Source: Rhodococcus oxybenzonivorans (GTDB lineage: Bacteria > Actinomycetota > Actinomycetes > Mycobacteriales > Mycobacteriaceae). From it: DNA of 64,000 nt. Shown one piece after another: positions 43,740 to 54,816 of this stretch. The stretch's first letter is position 1; each line of letters begins with the position of its first letter. The position numbers were made by a program, and so were the translations under genes. The notes beneath the pieces were generated by a model. That model worked only from the letters and a program-made list of their open reading frames with translations, did no database searches and was not told where the DNA came from. The stretch is from positions 2,790,001 through 2,854,000 of the forward strand of contig NZ_CP021354.1 in assembly GCF_003130705.1 (NCBI RefSeq), given 5' to 3'.

Positions 43740-44984
43740 ATGCAGTCTTGGTCCGATACCGCTGTCCCGTCCGTCCCTGGCCAGGGTTCCCCTCTGCGGT
43801 TGTTCGATACCGCTGACCGGCAGGTTCGACCGGTCACCCCGGGGCGCACGGCGACCATGTACGTGTGCGGTATCACTCCCTACGACGCCACCCACCTCGG
43901 CCACGCCGCCACCTACCTGACATTCGATCTGGTCAACCGACTGTGGCGTGACGCCGGCCACGAGGTGCATTACGTCCAGAACGTCACCGATGTCGACGAC
44001 CCGCTGTTCGAGCGCGCCGCCCGTGACGGCGAAGACTGGGTCGTCCTCGGCATGCGGGAGACGGCGCTCTTCCGCGAGGACATGGAGGCCCTACGGGTCA
44101 TCCCGCCCCGCGACTACATCGGCGCGGTCGAATCCGTCAACGAAGTGGTAGAACTCGTCGAGAAATTCCTCGCCTCCGGTGCCGCGTACATCGTCGACGA
44201 CGCCGAGTTCCCCGATGTGTACTTCCGCACCGGTGCCACCGAGCAGTTCGGGTACGAGTCCGGATACGACCGCGAGACAATGGAGAAATTCTTCGCCGAG
44301 CGCGGGGGAGACCCCGACCGCCCTGGCAAGGAAGACCCCCTCGACGCCCTGGTGTGGCGTGCCGCCCGCCCCGGCGAACCGTCGTGGCCGGCACCGTTCG
44401 GGCAGGGTCGTCCCGGCTGGCACATCGAGTGTTCGGCTATCGCCCTCAATCGCATCGGCTCGGGCTTCGACGTGCAGGGCGGAGGCAGTGACCTGATCTT
44501 CCCGCACCACGAGTACTCGGCTGCACATGCCGAATCCGTGACCGGCGACCGTCGCTTCGCACGCCACTACGTGCACACCGGGATGATCGGTCTCGACGGC
44601 GAGAAGATGTCGAAGAGCCGTGGCAACCTCGTGTTCGTGTCGAAGCTGCGGGGCGAAGGCGTCGACCCCGCGGCCATCCGGCTCGGACTGCTGTCGGGGC
44701 ACTACCGGCAGGACCGTCCGTGGACCGAGCAGGTGCTCGCCGACGCGCACACCCGGCTGAAGTTGTGGAAGGATGCCGCCGACCTCAAGTCGGCGCAGTC
44801 GGCCACGGACACGATCGTGCGGCTGCGTCAGCATCTCGCCGATGACCTCGACACACCCAAGGCGCTCGACGCACTCGACGGCTGGGCCCGCCGCGCGCTC
44901 GATCACGGCGGTTCCGACACCGATGCCCCGCGCCAGTTCGCTGCAGCGGTCGACGCACTGCTCGGCGTCCGACTCCACCCGTGA
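43740..44984 (+). CDS. mshC: Mycothiol ligase (Cys:GlcN-Ins ligase)
   Basis: ATP-dependent ligase joining Cys to 1-D-myo-inosityl 2-amino-2-deoxy-glucopyranoside, a step in making mycothiol, the actinobacterial thiol. It is a 414-residue cysteinyl-tRNA-synthetase-like enzyme. HIGH-like motif region [21 protein letters not shown], zinc-site [35 protein letters not shown], and KMSKSRGNL are all visible. The length is below a true CysRS (about 460), as expected for MshC. It is the last gene of the uppP run. The stop lies inside the inverted repeat at 44981-45020. Confidence 0.96.
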
Positions 44985-45020
44985 GTACTTCTTAACCAAC
45001 CGAGGTTAAGAAGTACTCAC
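44981..45020. repeat. 40-bp perfect inverted repeat between mshC and jetC
   Basis: GTGAGTACTTCTTAACC (44981-44997) and its exact complement (45004-45020) enclose AACCGA, a 17-bp perfect stem. It contains the mshC stop and lies 28 bp beyond jetC. It is A+T-richer than its surroundings. It may act as a bidirectional terminator of two convergent operons, or it may mark a DNA rearrangement junction. Confidence 0.8.
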
Positions 45021-45048
45021 GGTGGGGAGTGCTGCTGGTAGTCACACC

Positions 45049-48000
45049 TCACACCTCGGCGAATTCGAGCCCGCCCTCGACGGGGGAAGGCACTCGTCGA
45101 CGCAGAGGCGATCCGAGTGCCCGCGCCAGATCGGTGCCGTCGTGTTCGGCGAGCAGTTCGCCGTCTGCCCATACCAGCAGTGCGGCGCTGACGCTGTGTT
45201 CCGCCGTCGAGTGCGCGAGGTCGTAGTGCGCACACCCCGGGACCCCGGCGTAGGTGATCCAGAGGTCGTACCCGGTCATGAACAGGTCGAGGTCGAATTG
45301 GACGCTCAAACCGAGGAGTTCACCCCGACCGTTGTCGTCGACGCCGGCGAAGGCCTCGTCCAGGGCGAGAAGTCGCGGTGCGTGTGGATCAGCGGAGTCG
45401 AGCATCACGTGGGCGGCCGCGAACAGTGGCAGGTGGAGCGACACCGACTGTTCACCGCCGGAGAGTGCACTGTGGCGGGCGACGGTGAGGCGGTCTTCGC
45501 TGCCGCCTCCGCCGACGAGGGTGAAGGAGAACACCCGCCACCTGCGGTAGTCGAGTGCGGAGGCGAGGATCTCGGGGTACGAGCGTTCGGGGTGCGCGGC
45601 CCGGGCGGTGCGAATCTGGGCCGCGAAATGTGCACGCATGGCGGCGAGATCGTCCGGACTCAGCGCGGACGCGTCGCGATCGAGCAGTTTCGAGATGGCG
45701 CGGGCGTTGTCGTCGAGGTTGTCGGCGAGAACCCAGTGCACGCCGATCGTGTTACCGGACGACATCCGCCGCTCCCGCATCTCCGAACCCATTCGCGCGA
45801 TCAGGTCGCGGGCGTCGACGGTGCGTTCGTGGATCTGCTGAGCGAGTCCGGTGAGGAGGGCGTCCTCGAGTATGCGTCGTTCCGAGTCGGTGAGGAGGAG
45901 TTCCTGATCGGCGCGGGCAGCGGCGATGCGGGACGCGAACGCACCCACCGACGAGTAACCCTGATCGTCTTGGACCTGCACCACGGTGAGCCCGTCCGGT
46001 GCGTCCCACTGCACGCGGTAGTCCTGACCCGCGGATGCGAGGCCGGCGTCGAAGTCCTGCAGGGCTGTGGTGAGCGCGGTGCGGGTGGATTTGCGTGCCG
46101 CCTCGCTGACTCGCACCGCGTCGGTGGCCGAGTCCAGCGCGCTGTACAGGGCGAGCACCTCGGCGGGCAAGACCTGTGCCGCGCTGTCCGCGTTGTCCGC
46201 GTTCTGAATTCGGTAGACGAGCTGATCCGCGTTCATCCAGGCCGCAGGACTCGCCGGCCACACGTGCTCGGTGTCGACGCCGAGTAGTTCGAGGAGGTCG
46301 CGTCGTGCGTACGGGGCCAGGCGCGCCGCATCGTTGTGGGTTTCGGTAAGCGCGATGCGCAGGGTGGCGACTGCCGCCGCGTAGGCGCCCTCCGCTTTGC
46401 CGATCGCCTCTCCCGCATCCTTGTCCGCTTTGCGGGCCTCCCGCTGCCGCTGCTTGCACGCCTCGATCCGGGCATGCGCTTCCTCGAGTTGAGCATCGAT
46501 GTGTTCGGCGCTGGCGCCGAGGCTCTCGCGAAGGGTGTCCAGCCGTTGGACCTGTGTTGCGAGACTCTCTTCGGCGATGGCCGCCTCCTCGGCGAACTCC
46601 TCCGCGTTGCCACGTGCTTCCGCGAGCCGCTCGTGCGTTTCCCGGGTGTGCTCGAGTTCCTTGAGATGCTCACGCCGACAGCGCAACACCAGCTCGCCCT
46701 GCTTCTCGAAATGCCGGATGGCTGCGGCCAGTGAGTCGATCTCGCGTGCCACGTGTGGAGTTCGGTGGGTGACGGCCGCCGTGCGCAGCTGCTTCTCTTT
46801 GGCCGACAGGTCGGCGATGGCCTGATCGAGATCACGATCCGCCGCCGCAGACGCCTCGGTGCGTGAGCGCAGCATCCCCGCATTCTCGGTCACCGATTTG
46901 AGTGCGCGGAGAATCGATGCGGTGCGGGGCAGTGACCGGCTGGTCGTGGTGACCTGCGCGGACAGCGCGACGGCCTCCGCCTCTGCGGTGTGGGCGTCGG
47001 TCAGCAGCGCCTCGGACTCGTCGATGGTCCGATCGAGTTCGGCGATGCGGGCCGCACGTCTGCGCGCACGTGCCGTCGCGCCGATATACTCCGCGTCGCT
47101 CTTGGCATGCGAACCCTGTTGTACGCCTTGCCTATACCCGCCTACGCCATCGACGGCGACCATTGTGCCGGACACCGAGGCGCTGTCGGGCACCCAGGCG
47201 ATGGACTCGAGGACGGCCTGCACGCGATCGGCGGGGACGCCGGTGTCGGGCTCGACCTCGAGGACGTCGGCCAGGGTGGGACCGTCCGGGCGATCGCCCG
47301 TCGGTAGTGGCAGCAGAAATTGCTCGGACTCGGTGTCCGGCATCGGTCCGTCGCCGCCGAAGATCCACCCGTCGAGGAGGTTGGCGGCCTGTAACGCGGA
47401 CTCGACGCCGGTCGCCGCTGCGGCCTCCACGTTGTCGCGGAAGCGGACCAGACGCCACAGTGGTGCGCCGGGCAAGTCCTTCCGCGACCCTGTTCGGGCC
47501 GCGAAGGGTGCCGGGGCGTCGTCGTGCTCGGCGGCAACCTGCGCACGGGTGGCTCGCAGGTCGCTGATTCGCTCGGTCAGTGTCGCAATGTCCGATTCGG
47601 CGCGCCGACGACGGAATTGGAGCGACTCGACGGCGCCGGCGGTATGGGCGGTGAGCACTTCGGCCAAGGTGGGTGCGTCGTCGTCACCGACTCGGTGCAG
47701 CGCGGCGTCGAGTGCGTCGAACAGCGATGCGGGCACTCCGAGGGAGGTGTAGAGCGGCGCATGTTCGACCCACCAGGACCGCAGGGCGACAGCGGTTTCG
47801 CTGCGTGCGACCTCGACAGCCGCTTCGGCTTCGAGGACTGCGGCCCTGGCCTGCTCGAGTTGCTCGCGACTGCGACGCGCTGCGGCGTCGGCGCGGGTTC
47901 GTTCGGTGGCGGCTTTCTCGACCGTGCTCAACGCAGCCCGCACGGCCCGCACGTCGCCGTCCCGCTCCTCGGCGTGCCCGTGCAGCGCAGCAGTCAGCTG

Positions 48001-49230
48001 GTCGGAGCGGGCACCGGCGGGCAGTGGGGTCCACGTGATGCCGGCGTCCTCGGCAGCGACGTGCAGTTCGTCCTCGGCGCGCGCGAGCGCCTCGACCAGT
48101 TTCGCGACAGCGGCGTCGGCCCGTTCGGCTTCCTCGGTGCGCTGCGACAGCGTGGCCCGCGCTTTCGTCGCCTTGTCGACTTGTTGCTCGGTGGCCTTCT
48201 CGAGAGTGGCCACGGCTTGGGCGAGATCGTCGAGTTGTGTGCGTCCCTCGTAGGCGGTGGAGCGCTTGAGGGCGTCGAGGTTTTCGGTCGCCTGATCCAG
48301 TGCCCGCTCGGCGTCGATGAAGCCCTGCTCGGCCGCTTCGCGTGCTTCCCGGCTGCGGGTCTGTTCGGCCGCAGTCTCCCGTAGTGCGGTAATCCCGTTC
48401 TCGACTGCGTCGAGTCGCCCGGCCAGCTGGTCGACGTCCGAACGCGCCTGCTGGCGCAGGTACTTGGTGTACACGCCGATGAACCGCTGGGTTGCCCCGT
48501 CCGCCGCGGCGAGGCCTTCGAGGGCACGTCCGACTTCTTCCATGTCGCTGAACGAGCGTGCAGCCTCGAGGACCAGTTGCTCGTCGAGGGGTCGCAGACC
48601 GTCGGTCAAGGCCTGGGACAAACCCTTGGGATCGAGGTTCTTGGCAAGCTGTGGACGCCGGAGGGTGAGGATCAGGTTGATCAACTGGTCGTATCGCTCG
48701 GCGCCGAGGCCGAACATGCGTGCATCGATCGCAGCGCGATAGTCCACCGGCCGATCGGTCAGACAATCGGTTCCGATCTGCTCGCCCAACTGCTTCTTCG
48801 TCAAGGGGCGATCGTCTGCGCCGAGCAGGGAGAAATCGACGCCGACGCGACCGTCGGCGACGAAATACCACCGGGTGACCTTGTCGTTGGACCTCGTCGC
48901 GCGCATGCCGATACCGACCGTCACGGCCTCGGGATCATCCTTCGGCCCTCGACAGAACTCCATCCACACATACGAATACGCGCTGTCCTGGCCACGGTAG
49001 AGAAGGTTCGACTTCATCGTCCGCTCCTCACCCGCAAATGGATTGAGGCGCCGCGGTTCGATGCGGCCGTCGAGAACGAACGGGAACAGGACTTCGAGCG
49101 CCTTGGTCTTGCCCGACCCGTTGGGTCCCCGCAACACCAATCGTCCGTCGGCGAAGGAGAACTCCTGGTCGCGGTAGTCCCAGAGGTTGATGATTCCGGC
49201 ACGGGTGGGCCGGAAGCGCGCGCTGGTCAT
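45049..49230 (-). CDS. jetC: SMC/MukB-like ATPase, TIGR02680 family, JetC of a Wadjet-like system
   Basis: A 1393-residue SMC-type motor. Walker A is GPNGSGKT at residues 35-42. Long charged coiled-coil segments flank a central hinge region (residues about 200-1150; for example EAARKSTRTALTTALQDFDAGL). The ABC signature LSGGEQSVS is at about 1256, Walker B RLLALDEAFAGVDD at about 1286-1300. RFRPTRAGIINLWDYRDQEFSFADGRLVL matches the family N-terminus, so ATG 49230 is the start. In full Wadjet systems JetC with JetA (kleisin) and JetB extrudes plasmid DNA until JetD cuts it. No JetD follows: mshC converges 64 bp away. Confidence 0.9.
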   Translation of the reverse strand: MTSARFRPTRAGIINLWDYRDQEFSFADGRLVLRGPNGSGKTKALEVLFPFVLDGRIEPRRLNPFAGEERTMKSNLLYRGQDSAYSYVWMEFCRGPKDDPEAVTVGIGMRATRSNDKVTRWYFVADGRVGVDFSLLGADDRPLTKKQLGEQIGTDCLTDRPVDYRAAIDARMFGLGAERYDQLINLILTLRRPQLAKNLDPKGLSQALTDGLRPLDEQLVLEAARSFSDMEEVGRALEGLAAADGATQRFIGVYTKYLRQQARSDVDQLAGRLDAVENGITALRETAAEQTRSREAREAAEQGFIDAERALDQATENLDALKRSTAYEGRTQLDDLAQAVATLEKATEQQVDKATKARATLSQRTEEAERADAAVAKLVEALARAEDELHVAAEDAGITWTPLPAGARSDQLTAALHGHAEERDGDVRAVRAALSTVEKAATERTRADAAARRSREQLEQARAAVLEAEAAVEVARSETAVALRSWWVEHAPLYTSLGVPASLFDALDAALHRVGDDDAPTLAEVLTAHTAGAVESLQFRRRRAESDIATLTERISDLRATRAQVAAEHDDAPAPFAARTGSRKDLPGAPLWRLVRFRDNVEAAAATGVESALQAANLLDGWIFGGDGPMPDTESEQFLLPLPTGDRPDGPTLADVLEVEPDTGVPADRVQAVLESIAWVPDSASVSGTMVAVDGVGGYRQGVQQGSHAKSDAEYIGATARARRRAARIAELDRTIDESEALLTDAHTAEAEAVALSAQVTTTSRSLPRTASILRALKSVTENAGMLRSRTEASAAADRDLDQAIADLSAKEKQLRTAAVTHRTPHVAREIDSLAAAIRHFEKQGELVLRCRREHLKELEHTRETHERLAEARGNAEEFAEEAAIAEESLATQVQRLDTLRESLGASAEHIDAQLEEAHARIEACKQRQREARKADKDAGEAIGKAEGAYAAAVATLRIALTETHNDAARLAPYARRDLLELLGVDTEHVWPASPAAWMNADQLVYRIQNADNADSAAQVLPAEVLALYSALDSATDAVRVSEAARKSTRTALTTALQDFDAGLASAGQDYRVQWDAPDGLTVVQVQDDQGYSSVGAFASRIAAARADQELLLTDSERRILEDALLTGLAQQIHERTVDARDLIARMGSEMRERRMSSGNTIGVHWVLADNLDDNARAISKLLDRDASALSPDDLAAMRAHFAAQIRTARAAHPERSYPEILASALDYRRWRVFSFTLVGGGGSEDRLTVARHSALSGGEQSVSLHLPLFAAAHVMLDSADPHAPRLLALDEAFAGVDDNGRGELLGLSVQFDLDLFMTGYDLWITYAGVPGCAHYDLAHSTAEHSVSAALLVWADGELLAEHDGTDLARALGSPLRRRVPSPVEGGLEFAEV

Positions 49231-50611
49231 GCGAAGGTGTCCTTGCTGTCGTTCGAGGAATGGGGGAACAGATCGATCTCTGGGTGCGGTCGCGAATGTT
49301 GACCACGACTCCGCGATACCGCGCCAGCGCCGGTAGTACGAGAATCCCGCCGGGAACGGCGGCGACCAGGCTGAGGCGGTCGAGCAGTGCGACTGCGGCA
49401 CGTCCCAAACCCTCGGGATCTGCCTGCCACCCGGCAGCGAACGTCTTGCCGAATCGATCGACCAGCGACGCCATGGTCAGTCGAATCCGGCTGTCCTCGA
49501 CGAACGGATACGTAACCGGTTCGGCGGCCGGCAGCGTCGCCGCGTTGTCGGGGGCATCTGTGGCCAGGCTGTCGAAAATTCCGGACAGGGGAACGGCACC
49601 GTCCAGTTGCTCGATCAGAGCTGTCGCCTGTCGGTCGGGCACCGGCAGCTGGACTGGTTCGGCCCCGTCGGGATCGAGCAGGTGATCCGCGAGCTCGCCC
49701 GCCAACAACAACGCGACCTGCGCGACGGTGCCGGTGCCCGGAAACCGGATGTCGGACAGACGTCCCGACGAGTCGATCATGGCGACGCCCTCACGCCGCC
49801 TTTCGGCGACCAGTCCGGTGAGAAGTTCGACATCGGCTGCCGTTCGAGGGAGGGCGAGCTGCAATTGTTCGTCCTCGTCGAGTTCGGCCGCGTAGACGAC
49901 GGGACGCTCGATGAGGGCGCGTCGGACACGCCGAGCTACTTCCTTGGTGTCGACGGCGCGGTCGAACGCCGCGGGATCGGAGTCGCCGCCGCGCCCGGAA
50001 AGAAGTTCACGGACCGACCGGAGATGCTGGAGAGCGCGGGACGGCCGGAACAAGGCGATGACCACCGAGCGGTCGATGTCGTACAGCGCCTCACCCGCAT
50101 CGGGATTGGCTGCCCAGCTACCCGCGTCACCGTCGGCCAGCGCTATCGCGCCCCGGGTCGCGAGCCAGCCGACTGCGTCGACGAAGGCGTCCCGGTCGGC
50201 GGCCCGCTCGGTGGCGAGTTCGATGCCCTCGACCTGCGCCGCGGAGGCGGCCACGTGGTCTGCAAGTTCGGAAAGGGTGATCTGATTGCCAGCCCGCCCC
50301 AGCGCGGCCAGTGCCAGTGCAAGGTACGCGTAGCGGTACCGGTCGAACGTTCGATCCGTCGCGGTCTTGGCCGGGGCCCCGGCGTCGAGTCGATCGGCAA
50401 TGGTGAACAACCGCGCGGTGGTTTCGGTGACCTCGAGTCGATATCCGAACAGATCGAGCAGGTCATCGCGTAACTCGGTGGCCCACCGGCGGAGCAGCGG
50501 AAGCGCGATCCGATCCGGGTAGGTCTGTGTCACCAGATGATTGGACAGAATGATGCGGGCCGCCCGCTGGTAGGAGTCGAGCGCGAGCGGCGGTATCTCC
50601 CGTGCCCTCAC
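49227..50611 (-). pseudogene. jetB: JetB-like protein (DUF2398/TIGR02678) with an apparent 3' frameshift
   Basis: About 460 residues, KITE-like partner of SMC-like JetC. The frame from GTG 50611 codes well (MRAREIPPLALDSYQRAARIIL; YRYAYLALALAALGRAGNQITLSELADHV) to ARYRGVVVNIRDRT near 49285. There the same frame continues as nonsense overlapping jetC to 49028. A shift to the -1 frame near 49283-49300 gives HPEIDLFPHSSNDSKDTFA and a TGA at 49227-49229 that overlaps the jetC ATG (ATGA), the expected coupled end. The defect is one base or a programmed shift. Only the last 20 residues would change. The GTG overlaps the jetA stop. Confidence 0.75.
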
Positions 50612-52137
50612 TGGACCGTCACCCGCAGTCCGTCGAGGTGGAGCCGGCCGCGGGCCGTGTGTACCACCGTCGATTCCGAATGGGGAGTCAGCGTGAGTTT
50701 CACCCCGTTACCGGATCCGGACGCGCCGCCGACTTTCCCGCTCACGGGGACGCGAGCCGTCAACGCAGCGTCGAGCAGGCTGAGAAGAACATCGGTTTCG
50801 GCGTTGTCGAGCACCCGTTCGTGCACTCCTCCCGACGCGAGCGATTTCGCCGCCGACGCTCGGGCCCGCTGACCGGCCAGCTGCTCTTCTCGTAACCGTC
50901 TGATGCCGGCGTCGTTCCTCTGGACACGGGCGGGGGCGCCGGGGGAGGGCGCACGTCCCGTCTCGGCGAGCGTGCGGGAGATCTCGACGGGCGGTGCCTC
51001 CCACCACGACCGCGAGTCGGGAATGATGTCGGCATCCGGATGCACCATGGACAGATGGCGGGGGCGGCCGAGGTCGAACACGGCGCGGAACAGTGCGTGC
51101 GCCGCTTCCTCGGAGGGAGTGGCAGCGAACCAACCGGCGAGGTGCCGCAGCTGGCTTTCCCGGCTGACGCCTCCCCGCCGCGTCTCGGTGACCCTGCGGA
51201 GGAGCGACAACACGGCGGCGATAGCGCTCATGGTCCCTTCGCGGAGTCGTTCCGACTCACTCGGCCCGGACTCCGGTGGCAGAAACCAGTGCGTGAGGCC
51301 GTTCCATCGTGCTCGCCAATCGGCTTCCCGCTCGGCGAGCGGCAAAAATACTCGCTCGTCGCTCATCGCGGCCCTCCGGAGGAGGTCGTCGATCCCGGTG
51401 TCCTCGACCTCTCTGATCGCTTCGGCCAGTTTCGGTGCGTAGCGGGACAAGTCGGAACTGAACTCGCGCATGTGGGTGAGGAGCGCATCTTTGTGGGACA
51501 GGAATGTTTCGGGCGTGATCTCGGTGGTGCGCACCAGATCGCCGAGTGTGAGATAGAAGTGAGCGGCACGGGTGGCCATGTCGGACAGCGTGGCGTCGAG
51601 GCGACTGAGCTTCCGGAAGATCACGTCGTTGTCGGCGGCCTTGTTGGCGGCAGCGAGTTCCTTCATGTCCGCCAGCAGTTCGGGCAGAGCGAGCCGGGAA
51701 AGTGAGGCGTCGTCGAGGCGGGCGGCGAGGACGTCCTCGACGGCCCGGAACACTTGGTAACCGGCCTGGCTGAACTGGTAGACGAAGTGCCGATTTCGGT
51801 ACTCGGCGAGGCTGGCGGCCCGCGTTCCGTCGTAGCTGCGCTCGAGAACCTCCCATACGTGGAGTTGCTCGAGCAGGGGAGTGACCTCGGCAGGGGAGAG
51901 CTGCCCGGACACGTCGTCGGCGGCGATGCGGCCGAGGATGGTGGCCACTTCTGCGGCATGCAGGAGCACGACGTAATTGGCGCGGGCATGGTCGAATGCC
52001 CGGAGCACCCACAGATACTCGACGCGTTTCTCGGCGGTGGCGAAGGAGAACAGCTTCAACCGATCGTCGCGTACGAGGAGATCGGGGAGTGGCCCCTCGG
52101 GGCGGGACCACTCACGGGAGTTGCCTGATTCGCTCAC
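50608..52137 (-). CDS. jetA: JetA-like kleisin, DUF2397/TIGR02677 family
   Basis: A 509-residue protein, first gene of the cassette, predicted kleisin of a Wadjet-type SMC complex (role from the family). The N-terminal part, RLKLFSFATAEKRVEYLWVLRAFDHARANYVVLLHAAEV, and the central LADMKELAAANKAADNDVIFRKLSRLDATLSDMATRAAHFY are typical of TIGR02677 (around 490 residues). A C-terminal winged-helix-like part with FDLGRPRHLSMVHPD and ETDVLLSLLDAALTARVP follows. Translationally coupled to jetB (GTGA). Upstream 217 bp to the next gene contain a short dyad at 52194-52212. Confidence 0.88.
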   Translation of the reverse strand: MSESGNSREWSRPEGPLPDLLVRDDRLKLFSFATAEKRVEYLWVLRAFDHARANYVVLLHAAEVATILGRIAADDVSGQLSPAEVTPLLEQLHVWEVLERSYDGTRAASLAEYRNRHFVYQFSQAGYQVFRAVEDVLAARLDDASLSRLALPELLADMKELAAANKAADNDVIFRKLSRLDATLSDMATRAAHFYLTLGDLVRTTEITPETFLSHKDALLTHMREFSSDLSRYAPKLAEAIREVEDTGIDDLLRRAAMSDERVFLPLAEREADWRARWNGLTHWFLPPESGPSESERLREGTMSAIAAVLSLLRRVTETRRGGVSRESQLRHLAGWFAATPSEEAAHALFRAVFDLGRPRHLSMVHPDADIIPDSRSWWEAPPVEISRTLAETGRAPSPGAPARVQRNDAGIRRLREEQLAGQRARASAAKSLASGGVHERVLDNAETDVLLSLLDAALTARVPVSGKVGGASGSGNGVKLTLTPHSESTVVHTARGRLHLDGLRVTVQ

Positions 52138-52354: not shown

Positions 52355-53512
52355 TCACAGGACGAACAGGACGAAGACGATGGCGACCAGCACGAGCGCT
52401 AAGCCGACTACCGCTGCGACCAGCCAGGAACTGCGGGTGTCGGAGCCGGCAATGGGCGCGTCCTGCGCGACGGCGCGCGGTTCCGGCGGTGTCGCGACCG
52501 CCGTTGCACCCGTGGCACGCGCAGAGGAGGCACCTACTGCCGCGGCAGATGCGGGTTGTGTGGTGCGCGCCGCGGATTCTCTCGGCGTCTCGGCCGCTGC
52601 GGGCAGAGGCTCGCCGACAACGGCGTCGATCACCTCGGTGACGTCGTAGGAGGGCGGGAGGCCGATCGGGGTGACCCGGTGCGTCGTCGGATTGAAGCCC
52701 GCCGCGCGAATAGCGGCGCCGAGGGCGGCGGTCTGTTCAGGGCCGGGGCCGACCACACACCGCACGTCGAACTTCTCGCTCACCGAGGTCGCGAAGCCTC
52801 GAATCGCTGCTGCATCCCGCGCGATGAGCCCGTCACCGGTGACCACGACCGCGTCGAGGTTGCTCGGAAGCCATCCGAACGCACCCAGCGCGGTGGCGAT
52901 CTGGGCGGAGGGAGTTCCCCCCGACGCGAAGCGGAAGGCCTTTCCCGCCTCGACTCCTGAACGGATCAACGCAACCGTCGCGCCCGTGTCGTCGACATGA
53001 TAAATACCGACCAATTGTCCGGGACGTTCGGCAATTTCGGATTCGAACCAGGCGGCCGCGGCTTCGGCGTCCGATACCAAGGACAGGTACGACATGTCGG
53101 CGTAGTCCAGGGCGTCGCGGAGGGCGGCAACTGCAGTCGAGTCCCAGCGAGTGGGGTACGACGCCATGATGTCGGGAGCGCCGCCGGTTCGCCCACCGTG
53201 GTCGGGCAGTGGTTCACACTCCCGGAGCAGGCAGCGCATGGCGCCCGCGACCAGGTCTTCGGCCCGGTATCGGGTGCCGTCACCCAGCGCGACGCCGGCA
53301 GGATCACCGACCCGAGGAAGAAATCCTGACACGGTGTGCGTCCGACCGAGGGTCTGTGGTGCCGAACCGCCGAGGATCGCGGTGCCGTCCGGGCACATGT
53401 GCAGGACGGTGTCCCTGACGATCACGACAGGATCCGGTGACCCCGGGTCGTTCGACGCGACCACCGCTGTGGACACGACACTGCCGATCCTGAGCCCGAC
53501 TCCCATGGACAT
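52355..53512 (-). CDS. Membrane-anchored Hsp70/actin-fold-like protein
   Basis: A 385-residue protein. The first 270 residues show a degenerate Hsp70-like ATPase layout: VGLRIGSVVSTAVVASND (phosphate 1-like), MASYPTRWDSTAVAALRDALDYADM, LVSDAEAAAAWFES, VGIYHVDDTGATVALIRSG (phosphate 2-like) and NLDAVVVTGDGLIAR plus ETAALGAAIRAAG (adenosine motif-like). A low-complexity Ala/Thr/Pro stretch of about 70 residues leads to a C-terminal transmembrane helix, WLVAAVVGLALVLVAIVFVLF. No substrate-binding domain of DnaK is present. ATG 53512 or 53506 is the start. The function is unknown. Confidence 0.7.
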   Translation of the reverse strand: MSMGVGLRIGSVVSTAVVASNDPGSPDPVVIVRDTVLHMCPDGTAILGGSAPQTLGRTHTVSGFLPRVGDPAGVALGDGTRYRAEDLVAGAMRCLLRECEPLPDHGGRTGGAPDIMASYPTRWDSTAVAALRDALDYADMSYLSLVSDAEAAAAWFESEIAERPGQLVGIYHVDDTGATVALIRSGVEAGKAFRFASGGTPSAQIATALGAFGWLPSNLDAVVVTGDGLIARDAAAIRGFATSVSEKFDVRCVVGPGPEQTAALGAAIRAAGFNPTTHRVTPIGLPPSYDVTEVIDAVVGEPLPAAAETPRESAARTTQPASAAAVGASSARATGATAVATPPEPRAVAQDAPIAGSDTRSSWLVAAVVGLALVLVAIVFVLFVL

Positions 53513-53694
53513 GCAAGTACCCCTATTCGTGTGCGAACGGATTGTGAATTCCGCCTGGCCGTTCCGACGCGCTCGTCGCGGCCACAAGATGTACATCCTG
53601 CTACTCGGAGGGGCCTGTGCCCGCCATCACGCGCGGCGTGGCGGCGGCGTGTCGCTCGTATCGACCGCTTTCCTCGATATTTGGGCGATCGCAG

Positions 53695-54816
53695 TCACGA
53701 AGGAGTGTGTGGGGCGAGCGGGGTTCGCCATTCGCTCTCGTGGTCGGCGAGCCAGCTGAGGAGATGCTCAGCCTCTTGGGGATGACGCCCGGTTCCGGCA
53801 AGCAAGTCGGCGAAGGCCTGCGTCGGGGCCACCAGGCGAACGTTCTCGCGGAACAGCGTGCGCTCGAACACGGCCGCTGACCGGGGAGTGGCGATGAGGA
53901 CGTTGGCGCCTTCGTCGACGGGGCGCAAGTGGAGGGCCTTGGCGAGCGCCTCGCCGTGATCGGCATAGATCTGCACCTGGTGCGCCGGTGCGTAGTCGAC
54001 GAACGCTGCCGCAGCGACCGAACCCGTAACTGCATACAGCTGATCTGCGTGCTTTGCGAGACCGGCGAGGACGGAGGCGACGCCTTCGGGGGCGAAGTAA
54101 CCGACAGTGGGGGAGTCCTTGAAACTGGCGTCGCTGCTCCAGGCACGCAACATGTGCTGCCACCGCACCCTCGTCACGGGTCCACGGGGGAGTCGCTCCA
54201 GTAGATCGCGTTCTTCGAGCGTTTCGACGACTCGATAGGTGGCTCCAGTCGAGGCCCCGGAGAGCCGGACGAGTTGAGGGACGGTGAGTTGACCGGAGTG
54301 GTCGGCGAGCGCCCGCACCACGCGGGCGGCCGGGTCGCCGGTCAACTGGGCCGCGGGCCGGCCGGGACCGCGCCAGGGGTCGGCATCGGCACCACGATCA
54401 CGTACCCAGATTGCCGGCCGGTCGGCAGACAGCGAGGTATTGCCCGTGGCGTCGGCGTAGGAGAGGCCACGCGCATCGAGTTGACGCCGAACCGGTTCGG
54501 AAAGATAACGCGCACAAACGAATCCGCGATCAGAATCGGAAAGGCTGTCTGCGAATCTGGCCGCGTCCCCCGCCAGCACACCGCGAGCGGGGATGACCGA
54601 GAAGGAGGCTACCTCGCCGTTCGGCGCACCCACGAGGAGGCGTTCCGGAGCGTCGGGGAGCGAGCGGGACTTACCGGACGTCAACGTCCAGCCGTGGGGG
54701 AGCGCTGCCTGGAGCGTCGCGATCGACCGGCGGTAGAGGTCGATGTCGCGCTCCGGCTTGGGAAATGGCACTTTTTGCTCGCGACCCGCGAATTCAGTGT
54801 TCTCCTGACCCGGCAC
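53695..54816 (-). CDS. Winged-helix regulator-like protein
   Basis: A 373-residue protein of uncertain family. Residues about 165-225 form a winged helix (RALADHSGQLTVPQLVRLSGASTGATYRVVETLEERDLLERL). The C-terminal half, LYAVTGSVAAAAFVDYAPAHQVQIYADHGEALAKAL and VLIATPRSAAVFERTLF, resembles the nucleotidyltransferase-like C-terminal part of AbiEi-type antitoxins/regulators (weak, unverified). An N-terminal 130 residues include GRGLSYADATGN-like text, also seen in such proteins. Start GTG 54816; a dyad at 54831-54848 overlaps its probable promoter. It may sense DNA damage or control the jet region; not shown. Confidence 0.6.
   Translation of the reverse strand: MPGQENTEFAGREQKVPFPKPERDIDLYRRSIATLQAALPHGWTLTSGKSRSLPDAPERLLVGAPNGEVASFSVIPARGVLAGDAARFADSLSDSDRGFVCARYLSEPVRRQLDARGLSYADATGNTSLSADRPAIWVRDRGADADPWRGPGRPAAQLTGDPAARVVRALADHSGQLTVPQLVRLSGASTGATYRVVETLEERDLLERLPRGPVTRVRWQHMLRAWSSDASFKDSPTVGYFAPEGVASVLAGLAKHADQLYAVTGSVAAAAFVDYAPAHQVQIYADHGEALAKALHLRPVDEGANVLIATPRSAAVFERTLFRENVRLVAPTQAFADLLAGTGRHPQEAEHLLSWLADHESEWRTPLAPHTPS

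Follow-up and report, generated by a model that had tools for sequence, protein, structure and literature searches.

Type II Wadjet operons without jetD in Rhodococcus and its relatives probably encode a non-cutting SMC complex

Wadjet systems pair a structural maintenance of chromosomes (SMC) motor, JetABC, which extrudes DNA, with a nuclease, JetD, which is activated upon complete extrusion, as outlined in PMC12647877. What remains of such a machine when the gene for the cutting subunit is missing? The question is raised by a stretch of 64,000 nucleotides (nt) from Rhodococcus oxybenzonivorans (GCF_003130705.1, contig NZ_CP021354.1, positions 2,790,001-2,854,000 of the forward strand; hereafter the window), in which jetA, jetB and jetC follow one another on the minus strand and are met by mshC converging from the opposite side. 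The reading that we favour, with some reserve, is that a type II Wadjet operon lost jetD by deletion and that the remaining JetABC was kept as a non-cutting SMC complex. Comparison with related loci supports the deletion, and the JetABC that it left behind has probably been retained as a working complex.

A type II cassette without jetD

The three genes on the minus strand encode a kleisin-like protein (jetA, 50608-52137; TIGR02677, DUF2397, JetA2), a KITE-like protein (jetB, 49028-50611; TIGR02678, DUF2398, JetB2) and an SMC ATPase (jetC, 45049-49230; TIGR02680, JetC2), the first two being recognized by NCBIfam, Pfam (DUF2397 and DUF2398) and PADLOC models alike. Scores for JetA (247 bits, cut-off 166) and JetC (737 bits, cut-off 463) lie far above the NCBIfam thresholds and that for JetB, whose protein was cut at 49358 for the family scans, barely above (125.7 bits, cut-off 124.65); PADLOC assigns 633 bits to JetA2, 636 bits to JetB2 (from the same cut protein) and 1442 bits to JetC2. 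We placed the jetC start at a likely ATG near 49230 rather than at the upstream GTG at 49401, because the best PADLOC match covers the protein only from residue 57 onwards. JetC has an intact Walker A motif (GPNGSGKT, 49105-49128), ABC signature (LSGGEQ, 45448-45465) and Walker B motif (LLALDEAF, 45349-45372), all on the minus strand with coordinates derived by arithmetic, and the sole solved chain matched by a JetC profile (E 0.01), 9qe0_A, is itself named JetC. The downstream neighbour mshC (43740-44984, plus strand; TIGR03447, 743 bits) leaves a gap of 64 bp after the jetC stop (44985-45048). Family models and genome-wide searches thus bear out what an initial annotation, made from the letters of this stretch, had described: three genes in Wadjet order with no jetD, an intact ATPase and an mshC converging 64 bp beyond jetC. 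Its label of type III was mistaken; the cassette is Wadjet type II by the PADLOC models, whose suffix ‘2’ we read as type II.

The same annotation had suggested that jetD might be encoded elsewhere, and had named a JetD domain fused into a neighbour as a finding that would refute it. Searches of the whole genome (four contigs, 8.01 Mb) contradict the first suggestion: jetD was not found with TIGR02679, nor did PF09664, PF09983 or a profile built from 17 JetD proteins give a match at E 1, detection of the JetD of this clade having been demonstrated for TIGR02679 and the 17-row profile and not for PF09664 or PF09983. The positive control consisted of two congeners, G014 and G024, in which both TIGR02679 and the 17-row profile detect jetD, with the control set staying below the TIGR02679 cut-off; the remaining matches of the profile in the genus (G008, G010 and G020) are weak, with E values of 0.036 to 0.29. 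As to fusion, no JetD domain occurs in the six proteins scanned, namely JetA, JetB, JetC and three neighbours.

The nearest JetC in our tree (93-94% identity) belongs to one of these congeners, Rhodococcus tibetensis FXJ9.536 (G024), whose locus (L034/L159) is intact, with jetA, jetB, jetC and jetD followed by mshC; PADLOC scores its JetD at 332 bits (JetD2), and the order is identical in G014. States with and without jetD therefore both occur at the equivalent locus in the related genomes that the initial annotation had proposed to compare. Downstream of the jetC stop, the window and the R. tibetensis junction agree as far as the start codon of jetD and part ways in the codons immediately after it. 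A GTG at the position of the R. tibetensis jetD start opens a frame of only 17 codons (44992-45045, minus strand), a likely vestige of the lost gene. The exact match extends only about ten bases beyond the stop region, a scar that would be weak if taken alone, without the shared neighbourhood. Together these comparisons support a junction that is the expected remnant of a deletion running from the jetD start to just before mshC. In other jetD-less genomes the gap is similarly short or occupied by other genes, which in L045 and L046 appear transposase-like by our reading of the translations and elsewhere are unrelated.

The gap also holds a palindrome with 19-bp arms (44979-45022), placed between the convergent ends of jetC and mshC and able to form a hairpin. 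The 64 bases fold better than their shuffles (z -3.87). The palindrome lacks a T-run and was not flagged by a terminator scan that requires one. Palindromes lie at the equivalent place in L037, L053 and L039, where the letters differ and the pairing is kept (none is evident in L033), which suggests a probable two-way terminator.

Selection on jetABC and the search for a substitute for JetD

Whether the remaining genes still do anything can be judged from the many loci that share the arrangement. In a JetC tree (FastTree; 121 rows from 125 loci, L054, L058, L135 and L156 being excluded because their jetC is split or fragmentary), a main clade of 97 rows contains 18 with jetD and 79 without. All 79 jetD-less rows keep Walker A and have jetA and jetB each in a single piece; signature and Walker B are present in 77, and the other two are cut by contig ends.

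Substitution rates agree with this integrity. We computed median pairwise ratios of nonsynonymous to synonymous rates (dN/dS; Nei-Gojobori, own script, pairs with dS of 0.05-1.5), for pairs that are not independent and for groups named after tree neighbours or with labels of our own. In the order jetA/jetB/jetC, the medians are 0.026/0.057/0.051 in a jetD-less R. erythropolis-like group (9 rows; mshC 0.038), 0.054/0.101/0.097 in a jetD-less R. opacus-like group (8 rows; mshC 0.059) and 0.088/0.167/0.124 in jetD-less Prescottella (13 rows; mshC 0.101 from 4 rows). The jet genes in these three groups thus evolve at 0.7-1.7 times the ratio of mshC, and an R. fascians-like group that has jetD (14 rows, 13 for jetA) gives 0.071/0.116/0.071, with 0.062 for mshC and 0.105 for jetD. 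All group medians are well below 1, and jetABC is under purifying selection in the jetD-less groups. Retention by selection after the loss of the nuclease gene is accordingly found in each jetD-less group measured, with jetB borderline in the lineage of the window. Members of genus g27 carry a second, distant jetABC (L118, L130, L137 and L139-L150), in a clade of which 15 of 15 rows lack jetD; it evolves faster, with the highest ratios of all groups (0.340/0.332/0.292, 13 of the 15 rows taken).

Several observations weigh against retention. The ratios are higher in Nocardia (10 rows; 0.173/0.250/0.228) and in an R. ruber-like group (11 of 15 rows taken; 0.153/0.196/0.210), both without an mshC control, and those of jetB and jetC reach up to 1.7 times that of mshC where the control exists. 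Two jetD-less loci outside the 79 rows are broken: L054 has jetC in two pieces, and L156, from a genome that is 79% complete (G207), has jetA, jetB and jetC in pieces. In the window itself, jetB shifts out of the frame used by 15 inspected relatives at about 49281-49290 (minus strand), with the loss of about 19 tail residues, and its open reading frame runs on for about 200 bp into jetC; in those relatives jetB ends just before jetC, and in L034 its stop overlaps the jetC start. The branch leading to the window also carries 18 synonymous and 13 nonsynonymous changes in jetB; for the sister branch the counts are 17 and 3 (Fisher p 0.064). Finally, an unrelated effector might be encoded elsewhere.

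These points bear most directly on the idea that the operon is a decaying remnant, in which jetD was lost, jetABC drifts and nothing functional remains in the window strain. We consider this unlikely. The displaced jetB tail and the weak excess of amino-acid changes in jetB speak for it, as do jet genes found in pieces at L054, L140 and L156 and at the jetD-bearing loci L128 and L135. Against it stand the 79 rows with single-piece jetA and jetB, preserved ATPase motifs and ratios well below 1 in each group, as well as the pace of the other two genes on the window branch, where synonymous and nonsynonymous changes number 21 and 6 in jetA (22 and 8 on the sister branch) and 49 and 19 in jetC (43 and 20); like these genes, mshC shows no difference between the two branches. 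The matched DUF2398 domain of JetB precedes the departure from frame, and the base responsible may be a sequencing error; otherwise the window strain may stand at the start of decay. Degradation, the first of three explanations offered by the initial annotation, thus fails for the clade, given the purifying selection on jetABC, and survives as a hint in the window strain.

A second alternative, improbable in our view, is a Wadjet system whose effector is unlinked or unrelated to JetD, with JetABC triggering plasmid destruction through another host nuclease. A sensor and motor kept by selection in many genomes is what defence would require, and no search was aimed at unrelated nucleases elsewhere in the genome. 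The absence of a JetD-family gene from the genome searches argues against it, and so do the neighbourhoods of jetC. We examined the 70 largest clusters of flanking open reading frames (L054, L057, L058, L135 and L156 left out of the 125 loci). The clusters that start no more than 400 bp after jetC on the same strand in at least four loci are jetD itself (19 loci, all of them jetD-bearing), two that lie opposite mshC, as judged from position, and two confined to single genera (g10 and g27). By our reading, the g10 cluster encodes a chitinase- or lysozyme-type protein. Among ten flanking proteins from five loci and the window, Pfam recognizes a glycosidase, regulators and an SNF2 helicase and gives no match for the rest. 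No nuclease-like protein appeared among the eight cluster representatives read and these ten proteins, and no common gene takes the place of jetD among the clusters examined, which are only partly identified.

Clusters absent from the jetD-bearing loci lie on average 1-3 kb upstream; by our reading they resemble a transporter or a PAC2-like protein, or look like antisense frames, and the jetD-bearing stretches may simply differ there. Upstream of jetA, on the same strand, the window encodes a 413-amino-acid (aa) protein with a C-terminal hydrophobic segment (52355-53596, minus strand), which has no Pfam, NCBIfam or PADLOC match, and a 373-aa helix-turn-helix protein (53695-54816, minus strand). 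The latter, joined in part of the genus by the former, precedes jetA in genomes with and without jetD alike, so that neither is explained by the loss of jetD.

We also asked whether the jet proteins themselves differ between the two states. For JetA and JetB, differential conservation did not rise above a shuffled null, which ignores correlation between neighbouring positions. In JetC, residues 572-586 (L034 numbering), beside the presumed hinge, contain FxAR in all 18 main-clade rows with jetD and in 31 of the 79 without it. The motif is present in 0 of 6 jetD-bearing rows outside the main clade, and a paired test on six pairs is non-significant (median p 0.25); we therefore rejected the segment as a JetD contact identified by this approach. 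As a lead only, it possibly marks such a contact, or it arose by chance.

Distribution of jetD and the JetC tree

The jetD-less state is common around the window. In the genus, jetC occurs in 26 of 28 genomes (25 above the cut-off; the copy of G004 is split in two), and jetD occurs in 2 of 28. Across the family (251 genomes), 106 have jetC and 27 have jetD (TIGR02679, E 0.001); all 27 are among the 106, leaving 79 jetC-bearing genomes with no TIGR02679 match. Counts for the class (296 genomes) are 66 with jetC and 58 with jetD. Outside the family a JetD match accompanies jetC in 51 of 62 genomes; within the family the figure is 27 of 106 (Fisher p 5e-13, for genomes that are not independent and with a JetD match anywhere in the genome counted, fragments included). 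The state is not confined to the family, for eleven genomes outside it carry jetC with no JetD match.

Among the best 80 of 258 loci, which were ranked by similarity and are not a random sample, jetD is present in 15, and the local state is not judgeable for five that have less than 0.8 kb after jetC. By group these 80 give jetD in 14 of 46 loci of Rhodococcus sensu lato, 0 of 31 of Nocardia, 1 of 2 of Antrihabitans and 0 of 1 of Millisia. Two further arrangements were seen. In L063, L064 and L065, from genus g23 of the Nocardia group, jetD precedes jetA instead of following jetC. In L059, L061 and L062 (genus g14) a JetC scoring above 1200 bits against TIGR02680 stands with jetA and jetB, and neither the locus stretches nor the genomes contain a JetD match.

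Within the 97-row clade, an ancestral jetD implies 21 losses, a count that falls to 16 when only branches supported at 80 or 95 and above are considered and to 11 at 99, and starred branches provide six independent contrasts between rows with and without jetD. Four of the rows counted as jetD-less (L052, L057, L132 and L155) have less than 1.3 kb after jetC, and their genomes (G020, G023, G054 and G053) have no TIGR02679 match. In 18 of 18 jetD-bearing rows the gene starts 38-62 bp past jetC, in model coordinates. The main groups of a JetD tree, a Rhodococcus pair and two sets of seven in the g6 group, are those of the JetC tree; the placement of L070 and L092 is unresolved in the JetD tree or differs from the JetC tree. 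The fixed position and the agreement of the main splits speak against repeated re-acquisition, and jetD is most simply taken as ancestral in this JetC clade.

The opposite polarity, in which jetABC would be ancestral and jetD a newcomer gained several times beside jetC, appears very improbable. It is the more economical by parsimony, since only 6 label changes are needed in the 97-row clade when gains are allowed; it sits poorly with the identical position of jetD in every jetD-bearing row, with a JetD tree that follows the JetC tree in its main splits, with the frequency of JetD matches outside the family and with a window that matches the jetD-bearing junction beyond the jetC stop. That a misassembly or a failed search conceals jetD is hardly credible: models can miss a diverged JetD, and the control set stayed below the TIGR02679 cut-off, but TIGR02679 and the JetD profile do detect the gene in G014 and G024 and not in the others. 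Many separate assemblies, moreover, have jetC and mshC close together with no jetD between them (50-110 bp in model coordinates where nothing is inserted), and the contig that holds the window is 6.6 Mb long and belongs to a genome whose completeness is rated at 100%.

A non-cutting SMC complex and its possible uses

How far does the locus depart from the systems already described? It shares with Wadjet type II the strong JetA2, JetB2 and JetC2 matches, the gene order and the ATPase motifs, and its sister has JetD2. In vitro, a type II system from Neobacillus vireti, nvJET, cleaves circular DNA when JetABC and JetD, the former produced and purified separately from the latter, are mixed, according to PMC12647877. 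The window differs in having no jetD at the locus and none found in the genome, which makes the known mechanism of cutting impossible. If the favoured reading is right, JetABC would still load onto DNA, hydrolyse ATP and extrude loops, and a fully extruded circle would be left uncut for want of JetD; complex formation, extrusion, substrate and phenotype are inferred here from the genes.

Two relatives suggest what such a complex might be for. MksBEF of Pseudomonas aeruginosa likewise has SMC, kleisin and KITE genes together with no nuclease gene, an arrangement also found here. It differs in that a review terms MksBEF MukBEF-like, whereas the present loci belong to a type II lineage of Rhodococcus and Nocardia and involve more than one change on the tree. 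The MksBEFG system of Corynebacterium glutamicum, Wadjet type I, is another actinobacterial SMC defence complex acting on plasmid copy number: PMC10123090 reports that mksG null alleles, like deletion of mksB, affect it. That system differs in being type I and in possessing the nuclease MksG (PMC10123090). The likeliest use of JetABC would be MksBEF-like, either in the organization or segregation of the chromosome or in the restraint of plasmids through compaction or through effects on copy number. It would work beside the canonical Smc, which the window genome also encodes (1018 bits), so that jetABC is not its sole SMC complex.

An SMC machine that does not cut was the last of the three explanations in the initial annotation, and it has become the best supported. 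Its expectation that this would be new stands only in part: given the review on P. aeruginosa, the notion of a non-cutting SMC machine is not wholly new. For Rhodococcus or Nocardia loci of Wadjet type II that lack jetD, we found no description in the open-access literature, as covered by titles and the beginnings of abstracts; subscription literature lay mostly outside this scope, and we do not claim that such loci are unpublished.

The distinction matters for how these bacteria are catalogued. In a DefenseFinder survey, 73% of 97 Rhodococcus genomes are reported to combine Wadjet with a restriction-modification system and either Eleos or PD-T4-3 (PMC10482375), and a paper on R. erythropolis lists a Wadjet_II with three proteins only (PMC12915292). 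Set beside a jetD in 2 of the 28 genomes of the genus, such counts may be too high, and strains may be labelled wrongly as plasmid-restricting; if the loci are indeed non-cutting, genome surveys will continue to score them as Wadjet.

On balance, we lean towards the view that machinery for plasmid defence has been converted on several occasions in Rhodococcus, Prescottella and Nocardia into a selected, non-cutting SMC complex, which would serve either as a second condensin or to restrain plasmids by loop extrusion. These genera would then offer a set of natural cases in which the cutting subunit was lost again and again and the motor survived, and such a set would let the conversion of SMC defence complexes into organizers of chromosomes or plasmids be tested.

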